In this document: positions 9,505-18,903 of the stretch, piece after piece
Layout: each line of letters begins with the position of its first letter
How positions within the stretch are numbered: position 1 is the stretch's first letter
Source: a virus
IMG/VR virus record: IMGVR_UViG_3300010935_000107
Span: 1-31,510 of that record
Strand: one strand, 5' to 3'
DNA length: 31,510 nucleotides
Notes under the pieces: model-generated
The model's input: only the letters and a program-made list of their open reading frames with translations
The model's database searches: none
What the model was told of the DNA's origin: nothing
Position numbers and translations under genes: made by a program

Positions 9505-10830
9505 TTATTCACCTAGAACCTCGCGAATCATGCGAATCTTCTGGCGGTTGGATGCTGTTATGTCCTCGTCGATGGTTCCGGCAAGGGCCATAAAGCGGAC
9601 GCGCACACGGCGCGTCTGGCCGATCCTGTGACAGCGGTCAGCGGCTTGGGCATTCTCTCCAGGAGTCCAGGACTGCTCGGCGAATACGACATCGGCGGCA
9701 GCGGTCAGGGTCACCCCAACGCCACCGGCTACGATGTTGGCGACCATGACTCGAACCCGTGGGTTAGTCTGAAACTCGCGCACGTTCTCGGTCCTTAGCT
9801 CGGCGTTCGCGGCTCCGGTGATGGTCCTCACGCCGAAGCGCATCAGGTTCCCTGCTATCTTCTCGACGACCGCTCTATGGTGGGCGAATACCACGACCTT
9901 CTCTAGCCCGCCGTCAGCCAGTTCCTGGTAGAGCAGGTCGGATACCGGCTGCGCCTTCGCCATCCCACACAGGCGGCGGAAGCGGGCGAAGCCTTCCCCA
10001 TCCTTGACCGCGGCGAAGAACGAGCTCGGGTCGTCAAGGTCGCGGATAGCTTCCAGCACCTTGCCTTTGAGTTCGGCTTGCAGAACCTCCAACGCCTTGC
10101 CCAGATGCAGCGGGCGAAGGTGTACCGTTTCGAATCGGATCGACGGCAGGTCGGGTAGCACGTCTTTCTTCAACCGGCGCAGGATGAACCCACCGATTCT
10201 CTCTTTCAGCTCGGGAAGCATGTCCTTCCGGTTGCCGGTGACTTTCCTCCCGTACGGCGTCTCGCGCCAGTAGCAGAAGCGGTCGACAAACTGGTGTTCG
10301 GTGAGCGTGCGCCCGCCGGCGTCGACCTGCAGCCGCTCCGGCGCTAAACCTAATAGGTGAGTGTAGAGCTCGCCGGAGTTGTTGGGGCAGGGCGTCCCGG
10401 TCAGCAGCCACACCCTGTCGGCGCAACCGGCCAGCGCCCCGTAGAGCGCGACCGTGCGCTGCGCACCGGGGGACTTGAAGCCGTGGGCCTCGTCAACAAT
10501 CAACGCATCCCAACGCCCGGCGATAAGCTGCGATAGAATCCACGGCTTCAAAAGCAGCCCGTGAGTCACGACGACGATATCGACCAGCGGGTCAATCTCG
10601 ACCCGGCCGTTATCGACTACCTGGACGACTGGCGAGTCCAGCCATGCCACCGCCTCAGCCTCCCAGTTCCACAACACTACCGTCGGCACGACGACGAGCA
10701 CCCGGCTCAAGCCCCGAGCCGCGACCAGCGCGGTGATCGTCTTCCCCAGCCCTTGCTCGTCGGCGAGGATTCCAACCTTGCGTTCGCGAAGCCAGGCAAC
10801 GCCTGTGGTCTGGTGGGGGTAAAGGCTCAA
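9505..10830 (-). CDS. SNF2-family DNA helicase/translocase
   Basis: 441 residues. SF2 motifs appear in order: Q-motif-like LYPHQ at the N-terminus, Walker A DEQGLGKT (24-31), DEAH (113-116), LTGTP (143-147) and motif VI QAADRCHRIGQ (~395-405). It is the compact phage type, resembling the core of SMARCAL1/HARP-like translocases without accessory domains. It likely remodels forks or drives branch migration. The start is a TTG at 10830; no ATG or clear Shine-Dalgarno lies upstream before the in-frame stop at 10873. It is the first gene of the minus-strand operon. Confidence 0.93.
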   Translation of the reverse strand: MSLYPHQTTGVAWLRERKVGILADEQGLGKTITALVAARGLSRVLVVVPTVVLWNWEAEAVAWLDSPVVQVVDNGRVEIDPLVDIVVVTHGLLLKPWILSQLIAGRWDALIVDEAHGFKSPGAQRTVALYGALAGCADRVWLLTGTPCPNNSGELYTHLLGLAPERLQVDAGGRTLTEHQFVDRFCYWRETPYGRKVTGNRKDMLPELKERIGGFILRRLKKDVLPDLPSIRFETVHLRPLHLGKALEVLQAELKGKVLEAIRDLDDPSSFFAAVKDGEGFARFRRLCGMAKAQPVSDLLYQELADGGLEKVVVFAHHRAVVEKIAGNLMRFGVRTITGAANAELRTENVREFQTNPRVRVMVANIVAGGVGVTLTAAADVVFAEQSWTPGENAQAADRCHRIGQTRRVRVRFMALAGTIDEDITASNRQKIRMIREVLGE

Positions 10831-11102
10831 AAGATTCAGAATTTGGAGGGTGGGGCGCTCGCTACGTCCCGGTTACGCCAATAGCGTAGCGCGTACTTTT
10901 GCCGGGACAAGTGCGCATCAAAGAATATTTCGGCCGCGCACTTTTTCCCACCTTTAGACTTGCCCCGGCGTCTCGGCGGCGCGACCCTCTACCTCCGGTC
11001 GTGGAAAAACGGCGGCCGCCCCAGTCATGCTCCCAACCAGAACGACCCCCGTCGCAAGGCCCCGAAGGACCCGTGGATCAGCATAGCGCCGCCAACACGG
11101 GA
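10831..11102. promoter_or_regulatory. Divergent control region between SNF2 and primase genes
   Basis: A 272-bp region separates the divergent starts at 10830 (minus) and 11103 (plus). It holds two inverted repeats with similar spacing: CGCTACG (10860-10866) with CGTAGCG (10885-10891), and AAGTGCGC (10909-10916) with GCGCACTT (10936-10943). An AT-rich stretch (AAAGAATATTT, 10920-10930) lies inside the second. GCGTACTTTT (10891-10900) and GCGCACTTTT (10936-10945) are near-identical direct copies. Promoters for both directions and operators are expected here, but no hexamer pair is convincing. The plus strand is open as an Arg/Pro-rich extension of the primase, which I treat as non-coding. Confidence 0.55.
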
Positions 11103-13187
11103 ATGCGGGCACCCTTCCGAATTCCGCCCGCTCTAGCCGAAGTGCCCGCCTGGTGCGCTTGGGAACTGAGAGAAGTCAAAGGCAAGCCGCGCAAGGTGCC
11201 GATCCACCCCGACGGGTCGAAGTTCTCTACGCGACGGGACAAACCCTACACTCTGGCCCAGGTCCAGAACGTCGGCACCGGTGTAGGATTGGTCCTAACC
11301 GGCGGTATTGAGATAGGAGGGAAGCGGCTCATCGGCTTCGACTGCGACGCCTGCCGCGACCCTGAGACCGGCGCCCTGATGCCGTGGATGAAGCGCCTGA
11401 GAGCAAACCACCGCAACAGCTACGCCGAGTTCACCCCCAGCGGGCAGGGTGCACGGCTCTTGGTGCTGGTCGACAAGCCTCCACCGCAAGAGCTAAGAAA
11501 GGTACGGACCCTGGACCCTGCCGACAACACGACGAAGCGCCCGGAAATCGAGACTTTCGGCCTCGGTCGAGCGTGCTATATCACAGTTTCCGGGGACATC
11601 ATTCCCGGCGCTAGCGCGGACCTGGAATCGGTGCCCGACCTCAAATGGTTCACGACGCAGCACCCGAGCACCCTGGCCGACTTCGGCGGATCCACCCCCG
11701 AGCTGCCCGCCGGCACCGGGGAGGCTCCATCGCTGGACGAAATAGACCATCGGGTCAAGGCCCATCCCGAGGGCAGCGCCCTATCTGCCGGTAGGTGGGA
11801 GGATGTTCTGCCAGAGGAGAGCGCCTCCGAGGGGTACTACCGGCTGGTACAGCGGGCCGTCCGCGCCGCCAACGGCCACGGCGACGCCGCCACTCGGTGG
11901 CTCATCGAGCGCACCGCCTTCGGTGCCGGGACCGTTGATAGCGCCGAGCCCGACCGCTACCGCCGAGAGGACTGGGTAGCTACCGAGGTGGCCAGAATCG
12001 CGTCTAAAGCCCCGCGCACGGACCCCGAGGTGTTCGACCACCCGCCTACCGAAAGCTCCTTCATGCCTACGGAGGACGATATCGAGGAGCGCCAGGCCAC
12101 CGCCTCGGCGGCCGACGCCGCGTCTATTCTGCAGGTGGACGACTTTATCGAGCAGGTCACTAGTCGCGAGTGGCTGGTAGATGAGCTGCTGCCGTCCGAT
12201 GGGCTCGCGAGCGTGTTCGGCCGGCCGGGGCAGGGTAAGACCCCCCTGACCCTGCTCCTTGCGATCGCCACCGCTGCAGGGCTCCCGACGTTCTTCGGTC
12301 GCCGAATGGACCAGCACGGCCCCGTAGTAGTGTTCGTCGGCGAGGATGAGTCGGGCGTACGCGATCGCGTGCTGGCCCAGCTCAACGAAATCGACCCCCT
12401 CCTAGCAGGGAGCGGGCTGCCGCTCTACTTCACCAGAGAGCCGGGACGCCTCACGGACCCGGAGAATATCGCGCTATGGCTCAAGCGTATCCACGCCGCC
12501 ACCGGCGGGAAGCCACCGCGGCTGGTAGTCGTGGACACCCTGGCGCGGAACTTCGGCGGAGGGAATGAGAGCGCCACCGAGGACATGCAGGCTTTCGTAG
12601 ACGGCTGCGACGCCATCTCACGCCACCTTGAGAAGTGCCTGGTCATCTGCACTCACCACCCCAGCAAGGGTAACGAGGACGCCGGCCGCGGCTCCGGGGT
12701 CCTGCTCGGAGCCCTGGACACGGAGATTAAGGTAGAGCTCGTCGGGCGCTCAAAGCTGGTCGCGACCCCTACGAAGGTGAAAGGTGGGCCGCTACCCGAG
12801 CAGCCGCTCATCGGCACTCTGGTCCCGGTCCGGCACGGGCTGGGGTTCAAGAGCGATGGGTCGCCCCGGTCGGCGATTACCCTCGACGACACGCCACCGG
12901 ACCCGGGCGCCGTGTTCGAAGAGATCGCCGCCGACGAGAACATTGTGCACCTGCTGGAAGCAGTCGGGGGTCTCGACAGGCCGGTGTCTAGGACCGCACT
13001 TGCCGACCTTGTGGGCACAACGGCCAGAGTGATAATGCGTAGAATTGCCAGAGCAGAGGAGCTCGGGCTGATTAGCGTAAGAAAAGGCGCGAACGGCAAA
13101 GCGCCATCGTCCTATCTCCTTACAGAGGCAGGGTCTACGGTCATAACGAGGGCGGAAAATCCTATTGACCGTTTCGGCGGTCAATAG
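11103..13187 (+). CDS. Primase-helicase: AEP-like primase plus RecA-like ATPase and winged helix
   Basis: 694 residues from the ATG at 11103; a frame from a TTG at 10899 adds a low-complexity Arg/Pro-rich segment. The N-terminal domain begins IPPALAEVPAWCAWELREV and has FDCD (79-82) and FTPSGQGARLLVLV (110-123), as in NrS-1-type phage primase-polymerases. A RecA-like ATPase follows: Walker A GRPGQGKT (373-380), Walker B LVVVDTL (474-480) and a CTHHPSKG-type sensor (516-523). The last ~80 residues look like a winged helix (VSRTALADLVGTTARVIMRR), a plausible DNA-binding domain for origin recognition. It should prime and unwind at the origin. The stop lies inside the palindrome at 13161-13188. 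Confidence 0.87.
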   Translation: MRAPFRIPPALAEVPAWCAWELREVKGKPRKVPIHPDGSKFSTRRDKPYTLAQVQNVGTGVGLVLTGGIEIGGKRLIGFDCDACRDPETGALMPWMKRLRANHRNSYAEFTPSGQGARLLVLVDKPPPQELRKVRTLDPADNTTKRPEIETFGLGRACYITVSGDIIPGASADLESVPDLKWFTTQHPSTLADFGGSTPELPAGTGEAPSLDEIDHRVKAHPEGSALSAGRWEDVLPEESASEGYYRLVQRAVRAANGHGDAATRWLIERTAFGAGTVDSAEPDRYRREDWVATEVARIASKAPRTDPEVFDHPPTESSFMPTEDDIEERQATASAADAASILQVDDFIEQVTSREWLVDELLPSDGLASVFGRPGQGKTPLTLLLAIATAAGLPTFFGRRMDQHGPVVVFVGEDESGVRDRVLAQLNEIDPLLAGSGLPLYFTREPGRLTDPENIALWLKRIHAATGGKPPRLVVVDTLARNFGGGNESATEDMQAFVDGCDAISRHLEKCLVICTHHPSKGNEDAGRGSGVLLGALDTEIKVELVGRSKLVATPTKVKGGPLPEQPLIGTLVPVRHGLGFKSDGSPRSAITLDDTPPDPGAVFEEIAADENIVHLLEAVGGLDRPVSRTALADLVGTTARVIMRRIARAEELGLISVRKGANGKAPSSYLLTEAGSTVITRAENPIDRFGGQ

Positions 13188-13188
13188 G
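13161..13188. repeat. Perfect 11-bp inverted repeat across primase stop codon
   Basis: CCTATTGACCG (13161-13171) is the exact reverse complement of CGGTCAATAGG (13178-13188), with a 6-base TTTCGG loop. The primase TAG stop (13185-13187) is in the right arm. It is the left-most inverted pair of the TTGACC cluster. No T-run follows directly, so a terminator is less likely than a protein-binding or cruciform site. Confidence 0.7.
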
Positions 13189-13257
13189 CTATTGACCGAC
13201 GGCGAGGTCAAAGCGCGGTTTAACAGGTCAAAGGAATTCCTAACTACATACTACATA

Positions 13258-13839
13258 ATGGGTTACGAAGGAAACATAGAGCGGTCAAAGACGGTCAAAG
13301 CCCCTATTGACCTATTGACCCACACCTTAAGGGTGGGTCATAGGGTCAAAGGCTCAAGCGTAGAGTGGGGGAGGAGTGCTATTTTTGACGTAATTGGGGA
13401 CCCTGCTCCAGCCCCTAGACCCCGGGCGGTGTCGATAGGGAAGCATGCGAGAATCTACGTTCCGAGTTCGGCGGACCAGTGGAAGCATGACGTTCGGGCC
13501 GCGGCGATCGTGGCGCTCGGGGACTGGCCGCTCGCCGCCCCCGGTGTCGCCGTCGAGGTTTATCTGGAGTTCCGCTTCCCTCGCCCGAAGTCGCACTTGC
13601 GAACCGGGCGCTTTGCGGGGATACTGAAACCACGCGCCCCGCGCCAACACACACAAAAGCCCGACAAGGATAATCTTGAGAAAGCCGTCCTCGACGCCCT
13701 CGGCAAATTCGACGGGATGCCTCCGCTCGTTTGGTGCGACGACTGCCAGGTCGTCGATGGCCGTACCTCGAAGCGGTGGGCCGACCCCGGCGAGGAGCCC
13801 GGTGTCTCCGTCGCCATCATGGAGGTCATGCCGTGTTGA
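13258..13839 (+). CDS. rusA: RusA-family Holliday junction resolvase
   Basis: The RusA core begins at IFDVIGDPAPAPRPRAVSIG and contains the hallmark KPDKDNLEKAVLDAL, then WCDDCQVVDGRTSKRWAD, supplying the conserved acidic metal ligands and lysine. RusA proteins are dimeric nucleases that resolve Holliday junctions or trim branched DNA before packaging. The start is unresolved. I list the ATG at 13258, but it lies in the AT-rich part of the iteron cluster and adds ~41 residues unlike RusA. A GTG at 13333 is another option. A strong GGGGGAGGAG (13367-13376) precedes an ATT at 13381 exactly where family homology begins. The stop overlaps the next gene start. Confidence 0.88.
   Translation: MGYEGNIERSKTVKAPIDLLTHTLRVGHRVKGSSVEWGRSAIFDVIGDPAPAPRPRAVSIGKHARIYVPSSADQWKHDVRAAAIVALGDWPLAAPGVAVEVYLEFRFPRPKSHLRTGRFAGILKPRAPRQHTQKPDKDNLEKAVLDALGKFDGMPPLVWCDDCQVVDGRTSKRWADPGEEPGVSVAIMEVMPC
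13303..13352. repeat. 50-bp near-palindrome centred on CCTTAAGG
   Basis: Two tandem CCTATTGACC units (13303-13320) face GGTCATAGG and GGTCAAAGG (13336-13352) across the exact palindrome CCTTAAGG (13325-13332). TGACCCAC (13316-13323) pairs perfectly with GTGGGTCA (13333-13340), and pairing continues outward with small indels. It could extrude as a cruciform or bind a dimeric initiator. Confidence 0.65.
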
Positions 13840-14183
13840 TTGACCCCGAGACCTTGACCGTCGGTGAGCGCCTGGAAGTATCCCGGCGCCGATCCGGCAT
13901 GAGTCAGCGCCAGGCGGCCGCTCTGTTCGGGTGGCCCTTCCGGCAGTACGTCCGGGCCGAGCATGACGAGTACGCCGATGCACCCGCCCCGCCAATTCTG
14001 ACGCTCACGGTCGGCGAGGAGTGCCGCCTGGTGAGGAAGCGGGCCGGGGTCACCCTGGCCGAGCTCGAGAAGAGGTCAGGCTTCAAATCGAAATGGGTCC
14101 ACCGGGTCGAGCTCGGGCAGACCCGCTCTGCGCTACCGCTGGAGACTTTCTGGCGCCGTCACCTCGAGGAGAGAGTCCCGTGA
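13833..14183 (+). CDS. Tandem helix-turn-helix DNA-binding protein
   Basis: 116 residues from a GTG at 13833, with GGAGG (13821-13825) seven bases upstream; the start overlaps the RusA stop. Two HTH-like units are visible: GERLEVSRRRSGMSQRQAAA and later GEECRLVRKRAGVTLAELEKR. Each is followed by a recognition-helix segment (FGWPFRQYVRAEHDE; GFKSKWVHRVELGQTR), so an internally duplicated XRE-like fold. Both units keep the GExxRxxRxxxGxx start. It may regulate late genes or bind the nearby TTGACC sites; the position just before terS also allows a packaging role. These are inferences. Confidence 0.75.
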   Translation: MLIDPETLTVGERLEVSRRRSGMSQRQAAALFGWPFRQYVRAEHDEYADAPAPPILTLTVGEECRLVRKRAGVTLAELEKRSGFKSKWVHRVELGQTRSALPLETFWRRHLEERVP

Positions 14184-14650
14184 GCGATTCGTGCGAAAAC
14201 GCTCAGCCGTCCCACCGGCCCAACGGGAAGTTTGCGCCAGGGAACAAGCTCGGAAAAGGAAACACTAGCGAGCGGATTAACGTGGCCCGTCTGGCTCGGC
14301 GCAAGGCCAAGGAGCTCGGCCTCGACATCGACGCTCTGCTCTGGGATGTGGTGATGGCGATGCTGTTGAACGGCGCGTGCGGCGATACGAAGTCGGCCAA
14401 GCTGGCATACGACATGCTCGGCGAGCAGGCTCCCGCTGGCCCGCTGGTCACCATCGACGCCACCCAGCGCCTACCGCAAGCTCCGTTAATCGACGTCGGT
14501 CCAGATGGAGCGCCTCCGCTTGGTGAGCACCTTCGGCGTCTCCTGGCTATCGCCGAGGAGCGCGGCTTGACCGGTCTCGCCAACGCGCACCCGGCGCAGG
14601 TCATCGAGCACATCGCCAAGAAGAACGCCGTCGATGAGCTTCTCTCCTGA
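14180..14650 (+). CDS. Terminase small subunit-like protein
   Basis: 156 residues from a GTG at 14180 in a GTGA overlap, with GAGGAGAG upstream. The N-terminus RPNGKFAPGNKLGKGNT is the signature of many phage TerS or TerS-like proteins, followed by basic helices (INVARLARRKAKELG) and a region on the pattern GDTKSAKLAYDMLGEQAP. The gene lies directly before and overlaps terL, which supports a role in recognising phage DNA for packaging. The C-terminal helices (LRRLLAIAEERGLTGL; HPAQVIEHIAK) may bind TerL. Small terminases are divergent, so the call rests on motif plus context. Confidence 0.75.
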   Translation: MSDSCENAQPSHRPNGKFAPGNKLGKGNTSERINVARLARRKAKELGLDIDALLWDVVMAMLLNGACGDTKSAKLAYDMLGEQAPAGPLVTIDATQRLPQAPLIDVGPDGAPPLGEHLRRLLAIAEERGLTGLANAHPAQVIEHIAKKNAVDELLS

Positions 14651-16523: not shown

Positions 16524-16548
16524 ACACCGCGCGACGCCGCGCTACTAT
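16521..16548 (+). promoter_or_regulatory. Sigma70-like promoter candidate upstream of clamp gene
   Basis: TAGACA at 16521-16526 (5 of 6 to TTGACA) and TACTAT at 16543-16548 (4 of 6 to TATAAT) are 16 bp apart. Transcription would begin near 16555, at the ATG at 16556, implying a leaderless or near-leaderless message. The local AT content is higher than the flanks. The call is from consensus matching only. Confidence 0.4.
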
Positions 16549-16555
16549 GGACGGC

Positions 16556-17116
16556 ATGCAAATCCACTCACGCTACAAACTCGACCGCGCCGTCGCTAGG
16601 GCCGAAGACCCCCGGTCCAACACTCGCGGGTTCTTGATTGATACCGAAGTCGGGCTAGCCGTCGTTACTGATGGTCGCATCCTGGCGACTGTCCCGTGTG
16701 AAATCGAGGACGACGACATGCCTGTCGGTGAGGTTGTTATTCCCGCCGAGGCGCTCAAGGCTGCACGCAAAGCAAAAGTCCGTGGCGCTGAGGAGCTAGG
16801 TATCGAGATTGGCGCGGGCAGAGTGTTCGTCTCCGACGAGAACGGCCAGCAGTCCTTTCGCGCACTCGGTGGCGAGTACCCGAACTACAAGAACGTCCTG
16901 CCCGAGAAGGGTGACGGGTTCAGCATCACGCTCAACGCGGATATGCTGCACCGGCTCGCCGACGCGCTCGGTGCTGAGGGCAGCGGCGTAACGCTCACCT
17001 TCCAGAAAGATAAGACTGGTCAGCTCGATTCGAGGCGTCCGGTTCACGTCACGCCACTAGGCGACCACGGCGACGCGAAACCCGTTGGTGTCATCGTGCC
17101 GCTATCGGGGATCTGA
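16556..17116 (+). CDS. Sliding-clamp-like protein (DnaN-type fold, short)
   Basis: 186 residues from the ATG at 16556; an ATG at 16547 overlaps the promoter -10 and adds three residues. The clamp-like features are an N-terminal strand-helix pattern (GFLIDTEVGLAVVTDGRI), a mid-region helix (IPAEALKAARKAK), the loop GGEYPNYKNVLP (105-116, equivalent to the FPxYxxVIP of DnaN) and a C-terminal strand ending VGVIVPLSGI, like the IVMPM end of beta clamps. Bacterial DnaN is ~370 residues in three domains; this has about half that, so it would form a higher-order ring or act as a single clamp domain. It may be the processivity factor for the phage polymerase encoded far to the left. Confidence 0.6.
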   Translation: MQIHSRYKLDRAVARAEDPRSNTRGFLIDTEVGLAVVTDGRILATVPCEIEDDDMPVGEVVIPAEALKAARKAKVRGAEELGIEIGAGRVFVSDENGQQSFRALGGEYPNYKNVLPEKGDGFSITLNADMLHRLADALGAEGSGVTLTFQKDKTGQLDSRRPVHVTPLGDHGDAKPVGVIVPLSGI

Positions 17117-17522: not shown

Positions 17523-17920
17523 GCCAGCAAATCAATCTGACCCCTGACATCGTGGCACAGCTACGGGGAGTGGCTGCGGAACACCCTGGACGATTCCCGG
17601 ATTTGGAGAAACTGGTCGGCGAGGCGGAGAGTGCGCCCGACCCGCGCCTGACGTGGAAGCATGGGAACGCCCCAGACCGTGGGTGCTGGCACGACATCGA
17701 GCTTTCGCCTATCGAACCCAAGTATGTGCGTGTTGGCGCTATGTGGGGTTCGCAGCATCTCAACGCCCCCGCCCTCGTCGCCCTCGCCATCGGTCTGCTT
17801 GATGCGGCTGCGGCGCTGGAAGGGCTGCCGGAGGAGAGGGGCGAAGGCGCACACAGCGCGAGGGCGTATCGCTTGGGCAAGTCAAATCTGGTCGAGCTGC
17901 TCCAGGAGTTGAACCGATGA
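17519..17920 (+). CDS. Hypothetical protein
   Basis: 133 residues with a strong GGAGGGGAGGA ribosome site and ATGA overlap at both ends. The N-terminal helix (TPDIVAQLRGVAAEHPGRFP) is followed by a Trp/His/Cys-bearing beta segment (LTWKHGNAPDRGCWHDIEL) and Ala/Leu-rich helices. It is coupled to the decapeptide-repeat gene downstream. No motif gives a function. Confidence 0.6.
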   Translation: MSQQINLTPDIVAQLRGVAAEHPGRFPDLEKLVGEAESAPDPRLTWKHGNAPDRGCWHDIELSPIEPKYVRVGAMWGSQHLNAPALVALAIGLLDAAAALEGLPEERGEGAHSARAYRLGKSNLVELLQELNR

Positions 17921-18903
17921 AAACCATCCACATCACAGAACCGAATCAGGTCATCACTCCCGAAACCCATCCGGTTACGGAGATTACCCGTTTCATCTTC
18001 GACTCCGACCAAGACGGAGACATCACGGTATCCGGCGACTTCGGGTTTTGGGTGGGCGCTTCCCGCAAGGGCAAGGGCAAGGGAAACGCTTACCGCGATG
18101 GCGATGGTGATGGAGGCGCTTACCGCAAGGGCGAGGGCGAGGGCGACGCTTACCGCAAGGGCGAGGGCGAGGGCGACGCTTACCGCGATGGCAAGGGCGA
18201 TGGAAGCGCTTTCCGCGAGGACAGCGGGGATGGAGGCGCTTACCGCTACGACGATGGCGATGGAGACGCTTGCCGCGGTGGCGAGGGCAAGGGAAACGCT
18301 TTCCGCGAGGACAGCGGGGATGGTCACGCTATCCGCGGTGGCGAGGGGTATGGCGATGCCTTCCGCTACGGCAGCGGTGCGGGCGCTGCCTTCCGCGAGG
18401 GCGAGGGCGAGGGCGGCGCTTACCGCGATGGCGATGGCGATGGAAGCGCTTACATCCGGGGTGTGGAAAAGCAGGTCTCGTCCGACGACCTAGACGCGCA
18501 GATGGGGCAGCCCGTGGAAGCCCTTGATGAGCTGACGGAGAAATACACGCGCCCGACGAGCGACGGCTGCCTGCTAGTCCACCGCGATGTGGTGGCGGCG
18601 CTTGGGCCTGTGGTTGGTACTTTCGAGCGCTGCCGCCGCGCTAATCTGCCGATGAGCAGAGAGGCCGTAGCGCTCTACGAAGCCCACGACGCCCACGGCC
18701 TCCCCGAGATCCCCGTGCCGCCGCTGCATGAGCAAGTGCTGGCGCTGCTGGGGGATGGGTGGAAGGTTGAGCACAGCTGTATGGGCGGCTACTCGCGAGT
18801 ATCGCGTCGCTGCGTGTTCATAGTAATCCTAGACGATGCCAACCCCAACACCCCGGCCCAAATCGCCGACGCGCTGCGAGTGCTGGCGGGGGAGGAGGTC
18901 TGA
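17917..18903 (+). CDS. Decapeptide-repeat protein (A-Y/F-R-x-G-x-G-x-G-x)
   Basis: 328 residues. An N-terminal domain (~47 residues, ending DFGFWVGAS) leads into thirteen consecutive 10-residue units with pattern A-[YF]-R-x-[GD]-x-G-x-G-x. A non-repetitive C-terminal domain of ~150 residues follows, containing LVHRDVVAALGPVVGTFERC, LHEQVLALLGDGWKVE and a Cys-bearing strand region. Strict 10-residue periodicity with conserved Arg and aromatic positions suggests a beta-solenoid. Similar Gly-rich AxR-type repeats occur in other phage proteins of unknown role. The start overlaps the previous stop (ATGA) and the stop overlaps the next start. Open frames on the other strand and in other phases here are repeat shadows. 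Confidence 0.75.
   Translation: MKTIHITEPNQVITPETHPVTEITRFIFDSDQDGDITVSGDFGFWVGASRKGKGKGNAYRDGDGDGGAYRKGEGEGDAYRKGEGEGDAYRDGKGDGSAFREDSGDGGAYRYDDGDGDACRGGEGKGNAFREDSGDGHAIRGGEGYGDAFRYGSGAGAAFREGEGEGGAYRDGDGDGSAYIRGVEKQVSSDDLDAQMGQPVEALDELTEKYTRPTSDGCLLVHRDVVAALGPVVGTFERCRRANLPMSREAVALYEAHDAHGLPEIPVPPLHEQVLALLGDGWKVEHSCMGGYSRVSRRCVFIVILDDANPNTPAQIADALRVLAGEEV
18058..18447 (+). repeat. Thirteen 30-bp tandem repeats
   Basis: Units start every 30 bp from 18058 and open with GCTTACCGC or a close variant (GCTTTCCGC, GCCTTCCGC, GCTATCCGC). Units at 18118 and 18148 are identical over 30 bp, and those at 18208 and 18298 differ only in the last bases, which suggests recent duplication. The period is a multiple of three, so changes in copy number keep the frame, and it keeps several other frames open by accident. 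Confidence 0.92.

Follow-up and report, generated by a model that had tools for sequence, protein, structure and literature searches.

Positions 13162-13351 of the window (the whole stretch analysed, a linear metagenome virus contig of 31,510 bases that may be incomplete) are very probably a replication origin, at which the upstream primase-helicase would load itself via its own winged helix. A dense array of short repeats lies there at the 3' end of the helicase gene, with an AT-rich spacer and a hairpin; unrelated arrays recur at the same place in many lineages with this helicase type, and in related phages the iteron and the recognition helix co-vary strictly. From such features we infer binding, melting, helicase loading, priming and origin activity. 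In the mechanism proposed the primase-helicase would be its own initiator, its C-terminal winged helix binding both iteron groups and so gathering helicase subunits on both sides of the spacer. The spacer would open, RecA-fold helicase rings would assemble on the exposed strands, and priming would start at the opened spacer region, possibly at the hairpin.

Genes for terminase large subunit, portal, head and tail fibre identify the window as coming from a tailed phage, and DNA polymerase A, an exonuclease and an ssDNA-binding protein are also encoded. Beside the terminase, the 16547-17116 protein matches both phrog_947 (DNA polymerase processivity factor) and phrog_3007 (RusA-like).

The array, its spacer and its hairpin

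A first-pass annotation made from the letters of this DNA had reported ten exact TTGACC copies and one variant within 192 bp, on both strands and parted into two groups by an AT-rich stretch, and all of this was located as described. The left group, 13162-13231, has five copies (13165+, 13179-, 13192+, 13206- and 13226-), and the right group, 13283-13351, another five (13283-, 13293-, 13307+, 13315+ and 13344-) together with the one-mismatch copy GGTCAT at 13336(-). Among the array copies CTATTGACC occurs five times and CTTTGACC five times, and CTATTGACC is confined to the array in a search of the whole record. The expectation for TTGACC in 192 bp is about 0.07 on a dinucleotide model, or 0.23 if the record's own rate is used, and at that rate the Poisson probability of at least ten is about 1e-13; elsewhere in the record the densest stretch, whether of 192 or 300 bp, has 2 copies. 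The same annotation's view that copies are often paired at 8-10 bp did not survive, since the start-to-start spacings (14, 13, 14 and 20, then 57 between the groups, then 10, 14, 8 and 29) include just two such pairs.

The 51-bp spacer at 13232-13282, a candidate unwinding element, is 37% GC in a record of 63%, and just 0.2% of the record's 51-bp windows are as low; the lowest in its vicinity, starting at 13219, is 33% GC and ranks at 0.05%. The left group overlaps the final helicase codons (the stop ends at 13187), and the array also spans the gap before rusA. That gene, for a RusA-like Holliday junction resolvase, has its conserved part at 13381-13839 on the plus strand (Pfam RusA, 1.8e-19), in an ORF open upstream into the array. 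At the point where its relatives begin, it lacks an ATG; the start may instead be TTG at 13315 or GTG at 13333, both inside the array, or ATT at 13381 after a GGGGGAGGAG stretch, and the rusA start and the origin may overlap.

Within the right group, at 13316-13340 (+), is a hairpin, TGACCCAC-A-CC-TTAA-GG-GTGGGTCA, whose tip reads CTTAAG; its 5' arm carries a one-base bulge, and its base is formed by an inverted iteron pair. It has equivalents in the two closest relatives (L001 and L003). Folded as DNA, 13310-13346 gives -11.2 kcal/mol (z -4.0), and for the window, L001 and L003 alike the fold of the single-stranded DNA exceeds shuffles in stability by 2.5 to 5 SD. Hairpins with a CTTTAG, CTATAG, CTTAAG or CTAAAG tip are in or beside the array in 31 of 113 lineages (here 90% clusters) versus 3 of 1175 control windows, and mirrored or other tips in 0-3 of the 113; the tip motif was spotted in the data and counted afterwards, which makes a p-value optimistic, and it is the control tips and control windows that protect the count from obvious artefacts. 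Stems are wholly different in sequence between lineages, so the pairing has been kept by compensating changes. They are often an inverted iteron pair, and the one-base bulge, where present, is nearly always on the 5' arm. Intrinsic termination was considered and rejected, as a T tract follows only 1 of 30, which is not what ordinary terminators would have. By analogy with ssiA of RSF1010 (PMC4434180) the hairpin is a candidate single-strand initiation structure, that is, a primase start. No known RNA family was matched within 10500-14500.

Cumulative GC skew, which had been suggested as a check, gives no clear origin signal for or against and no clean switch at the array. The skew is strongly positive at 17.5-19 kb, in or beside an ORF (17917-18903) whose protein is without a PHROG match, and around 18000-18400 there are dense short repeats, GCAAGGGC and CCCTCGCC, with 8-mers in five to six copies.

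Recurrence of arrays past the helicase stop

L001 and L003 have helicases 60% identical to that of the window and share its gene order. The TTGACC cluster is absent from both, and at the matching place, between helicase and rusA, each has a different array, of CGAACCAA/TTGGTTCG in L001 and of GGGCACACAAA in L003. Conservation of TTGACC in relatives had been put forward as a further check, its loss counting against an origin; the sequence is not conserved and the presence of an array at the locus is. Since position and layout are kept and the sequence turns over with its predicted reader, loss of TTGACC is the wrong ground for refutation. Identity to the window is 70% in L001 and 56% in L003 over the helicase core, and 39% and 37%, respectively, over the winged-helix stretch. 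Distant from its helicase, L001 also has CCGGAGCC nine times in about 250 bp (within 1-325).

For a wider view 262 loci with the same helicase type were gathered from virus contigs, bacterial genomes and named phages, and clustering at 70% helicase identity gave 79 lineages with enough flanking DNA. With an array taken as at least 5 copies of one 7-mer, both strands counted, in a 300-bp window, 37 of the 79 lineages (47%) have one at the helicase stop and 41 (52%) at stop+100, with 22% at +200, 5% at +300 and, at 400 bp or more away on either side, 0-3% per offset (0-2 per ~75), lineage counts that vary with the way the loci were gathered. In arrays with two groups and a gap, the GC of the gap is below that of the locus in 26 of 37 lineages. 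Named phages with an array include Rhizobium phage 16-3 (GCGTGACA x13), EBPR siphovirus 5, Alteromonas PB15, Idiomarinaceae 1N2-2, Roseobacter CRP-811 and CRP-406, and Salicola CGphi29. As an out-of-sample check, five plasmid-like circular records that had played no part in forming the rule were fetched via one of these helicases, and in four of them the densest array is 80-160 bp beyond the stop of the helicase gene. The proposal that the TTGACC cluster is the replication origin thus gains support from comparison, with an array at the matching place in both closest relatives and in roughly half of the 79 lineages.

Circular plasmid records from Klebsiella, Caenibius and Methylobacterium (L268-L271; 17-38 kb), with an array just past the helicase stop, also have terminase, capsid or tail genes of phage, which is what one would expect if they were phage-plasmids, or phage genomes filed as plasmids.

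At the threshold used, 30 of 80 lineages have no array, some of them with sub-threshold repeats. Those with none at the helicase stop include phages of Mycobacterium, Gordonia, Corynebacterium and Nocardia (L095, L096, L102 and L104-L106). A shorter C-terminus was rejected as the reason, the C-terminal regions of arrayless helicases being equally long or longer; the arrayless mycobacteriophage cluster B, Gordonia and Nocardia phages may have another kind of origin.

The reader of the repeats and rival explanations

The primase-helicase gene (10899-13187, +; an ORF of 762 codons whose TTG at 10899 is a mechanical ORF start) encodes an N-terminal primase/polymerase-like part, a RepA-like, RecA-fold core that matches Pfam AAA_25 (4.8e-31) and a predicted C-terminal winged helix. 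Its PHROG matches are to DNA primase and polymerase/primase families; its N-terminal part matched no Pfam family, and the protein gave no Pfam match to TOPRIM. An AF2 model of helicase plus C-terminal domain has a pLDDT of 90, and Foldseek relates the core to RecA-fold ATPases (RecA, DMC1, RSF1010 RepA), with 1g8y, 1nlf and 1olo among the top matches. The C-terminal domain (12903-13157, +), modelled separately with a pLDDT of 85, is predicted to be a DNA-binding winged helix and the reader of the repeats. Its AF2 elements are H263-272, H274-284, H292-299, H303-315, E319-322, E332-335 and H337-347, with the recognition helix at about 13023-13061. Its best PDB structural matches in Foldseek are winged helices of MarR/SlyA type, including the DNA-bound 8ylg, 3q5f and 4lll, and searching PDB with the helicase sequence yielded weak CodY/SlyA winged-helix matches and nothing else.

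Repeat identity follows this domain. There are 63 distinct top 6-mers among 140 array-bearing loci. Between loci whose helicase cores are 75-85% identical, repeats are shared in 0 of 25 pairs with a C-terminal identity of 25-40%, in 143 of 535 at 40-60% and in 164 of 164 at 60-80%; the partial Mantel r of repeat versus C-terminal region given helicase is 0.56 (0/500 permutations), and that of repeat versus helicase given C-terminal region is -0.14, figures that, with locus pairs not phylogenetically independent, are descriptive rather than proof. In one branch the repeat can be predicted, for all 61 loci compared, from the six residues that open the recognition helix: GLNARR/GLNSRR goes with TGTACCGAA (29/29 loci), GLDYRR with TGCACCGAA (4/4), GIKSNR with AACCGAA (14/14) and GVKNNR/NVKNNR with CATCCGAA (14/14). 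The CCGAA part is constant and accompanies an Arg-Phe that does not vary; the 5' bases vary, together with the residues that precede the Arg-Phe. Such co-variation is what would be expected from direct reading by the winged helix and is hard to explain otherwise; the series comes from a different branch of the family, and we infer the window's reader from relatives. The earlier suggestion that the primase winged helix binds the array is to this extent borne out by comparison.

The co-variation speaks to what reads the repeats and bears less directly on whether they are an origin or, for example, a site of autoregulation. Could the winged helix bind the array mainly for regulation (autorepression, copy-number control or segregation) and replication start elsewhere? 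Iteron initiators often also autoregulate, and the regulatory reading predicts identical co-variation. We nevertheless consider it improbable: the gene's start is 2.3 kb away from the array, which lies at the opposite, 3' end, and no promoter was found nearby, so that the array would be a poor autorepression site; the AT-rich spacer and the conserved tip hairpin fit an origin, and the origins of SaPI, PICI, Cch2 and pRN1, relatives in logic, are at the corresponding place.

It is more doubtful still, indeed very unlikely, that the array consists of operators through which the tandem HTH protein encoded at 13833-14183 (+; Pfam HTH_31, 1.4e-9) controls transcription of rusA and late genes. That protein has two HTH motifs, its gene is close by in an order kept in L001 and L003, and two more TTGACC copies, at 13840 and 13854 and 14 bp apart, are at its start. 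The first-pass annotation had offered it as an alternative reader, a role in which it was rejected: the HTH proteins of L003 and the window are 60% identical and almost the same in their likely recognition helices, yet between the two the repeats have changed completely. In addition, arrays persist in lineages with other downstream genes, no common one being evident (42 families in 48 array-bearing lineages, by a crude search with crude ORF choice), and in L011 no HTH gene follows the array. Nor is there a sigma-70-like promoter near the array, with 0 promoter-like sites in the array region; a promoter cluster, considered on account of the resemblance of TTGACC to a -35 box, was likewise rejected with no -10 partner found.

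That the repeats are a non-functional by-product, whether of codon bias, recent tandem duplication or something else, is barely credible for the window and already refuted for the family as a whole, for although TTGACC is somewhat common outside the array (29 copies versus 23 expected on an order-3 Markov model, a frequency thus mostly of codon context), the density, the two orientations, the absence of longer repeat units and the fact that many lineages have unrelated arrays at the corresponding position all argue against it.

Known systems and the meaning of the family

The favoured reading, an origin to which the adjacent helicase would recruit itself, has close parallels. SaPI Rep and Cch2 each use the C-terminal domain to bind iterons that lie immediately after the helicase gene (PMC7581432), and a PICI rep-ori segment replicates plasmids (PMC6092414). 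The PICI/SaPI Rep-ori and SCCmec Cch2 systems have an initiator helicase with a C-terminal DNA-binding domain (predicted in the present case), an origin directly 3' of its gene, and short iterons, varying between elements, in two sets around an AT-rich region (PMC6092414, PMC7581432). The window likewise has its putative origin immediately 3' of the helicase gene and two iteron sets flanking an AT-rich region, a layout that matches PICI/SaPI, in this case in a tailed phage and beside a helicase of RecA fold. However, PICI/SaPI helicases are of D5/DUF927 type, whereas that of the window is RecA-fold and RepA-like, with Pfam AAA_25 alone; and PICIs and SaPIs are satellites needing a helper phage for their virion, whereas the window has terminase, portal, head and tail genes of its own. 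With a helicase of another class and a full phage, the system falls outside PICI/SaPI membership. The two-set iteron origin has been stated to be confined to PICIs (PMC6092414), and the window's helicase family appears to be a counter-example that contradicts that claim.

RSF1010 (IncQ) resembles the window in its hexameric helicase of RepA-type fold and its iteron origin, but divides iteron binding (RepC), unwinding and priming (RepB') among three proteins, whereas the window has a single ORF for helicase, winged helix and primase-like part. Its primase RepB' reads the hairpins ssiA and ssiB (PMC4434180, PMC4234260), a possible parallel to the hairpin of the window. Window-type hairpins share no tested sequence with ssiA.

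The alpha protein of phage P4 has a TOPRIM primase and a helicase of another superfamily. It is similar in combining primase, helicase and origin-binding domain in one protein and in its origin repeats (PMC4234260). A TOPRIM primase is not found in the window protein by Pfam, though some array-bearing relatives are annotated with TOPRIM (PB15). With lambdoid O, repeats and reader diverge together. Iterons and an AT-rich element at the initiator gene are likewise common to lambdoid O/ori (PMC7466680), but the lambda O type is a non-helicase initiator with a separate helicase loader, while the gene adjacent to the array in the window is itself that of a helicase, and no O or P family was found among the window proteins scanned. 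In pRN1, ORF904 also unites primase-polymerase, helicase and C-terminal winged helix, and the origin is again just downstream of the gene, with a stem-loop (PMC4234260); it differs in having an SF3 helicase and no iterons.

No description of a system like that of the window was found in the open-access literature, the search scope being papers available without subscription. It is possible, and we put it forward tentatively with chances a little below even, that these helicases represent a widespread and undescribed class of phage replicon, in which RecA-fold self-loading initiators have exchangeable winged helices, each reading an iteron of its own where the helicase gene ends, and a fixed CTTTAG-tip hairpin is the primase start. 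Were that so, the class would parallel the RSF1010 system with a single protein, the PICI origin layout would have been used a second, independent time, and the protein-to-repeat code would be readable.

Most phages have no mapped replication origin. Should the rule hold, sequence would be enough to place it in any phage with this helicase type, the guide being whichever short word is most often repeated immediately after the helicase stop, and the CTTTAG-tip hairpin would be a second cis element at these origins. The natural series of winged helices and iterons offers ready data for a recognition code. It also lets one ask a question of wider biology: do related phages keep distinct iterons and so avoid cross-talk in one cell?
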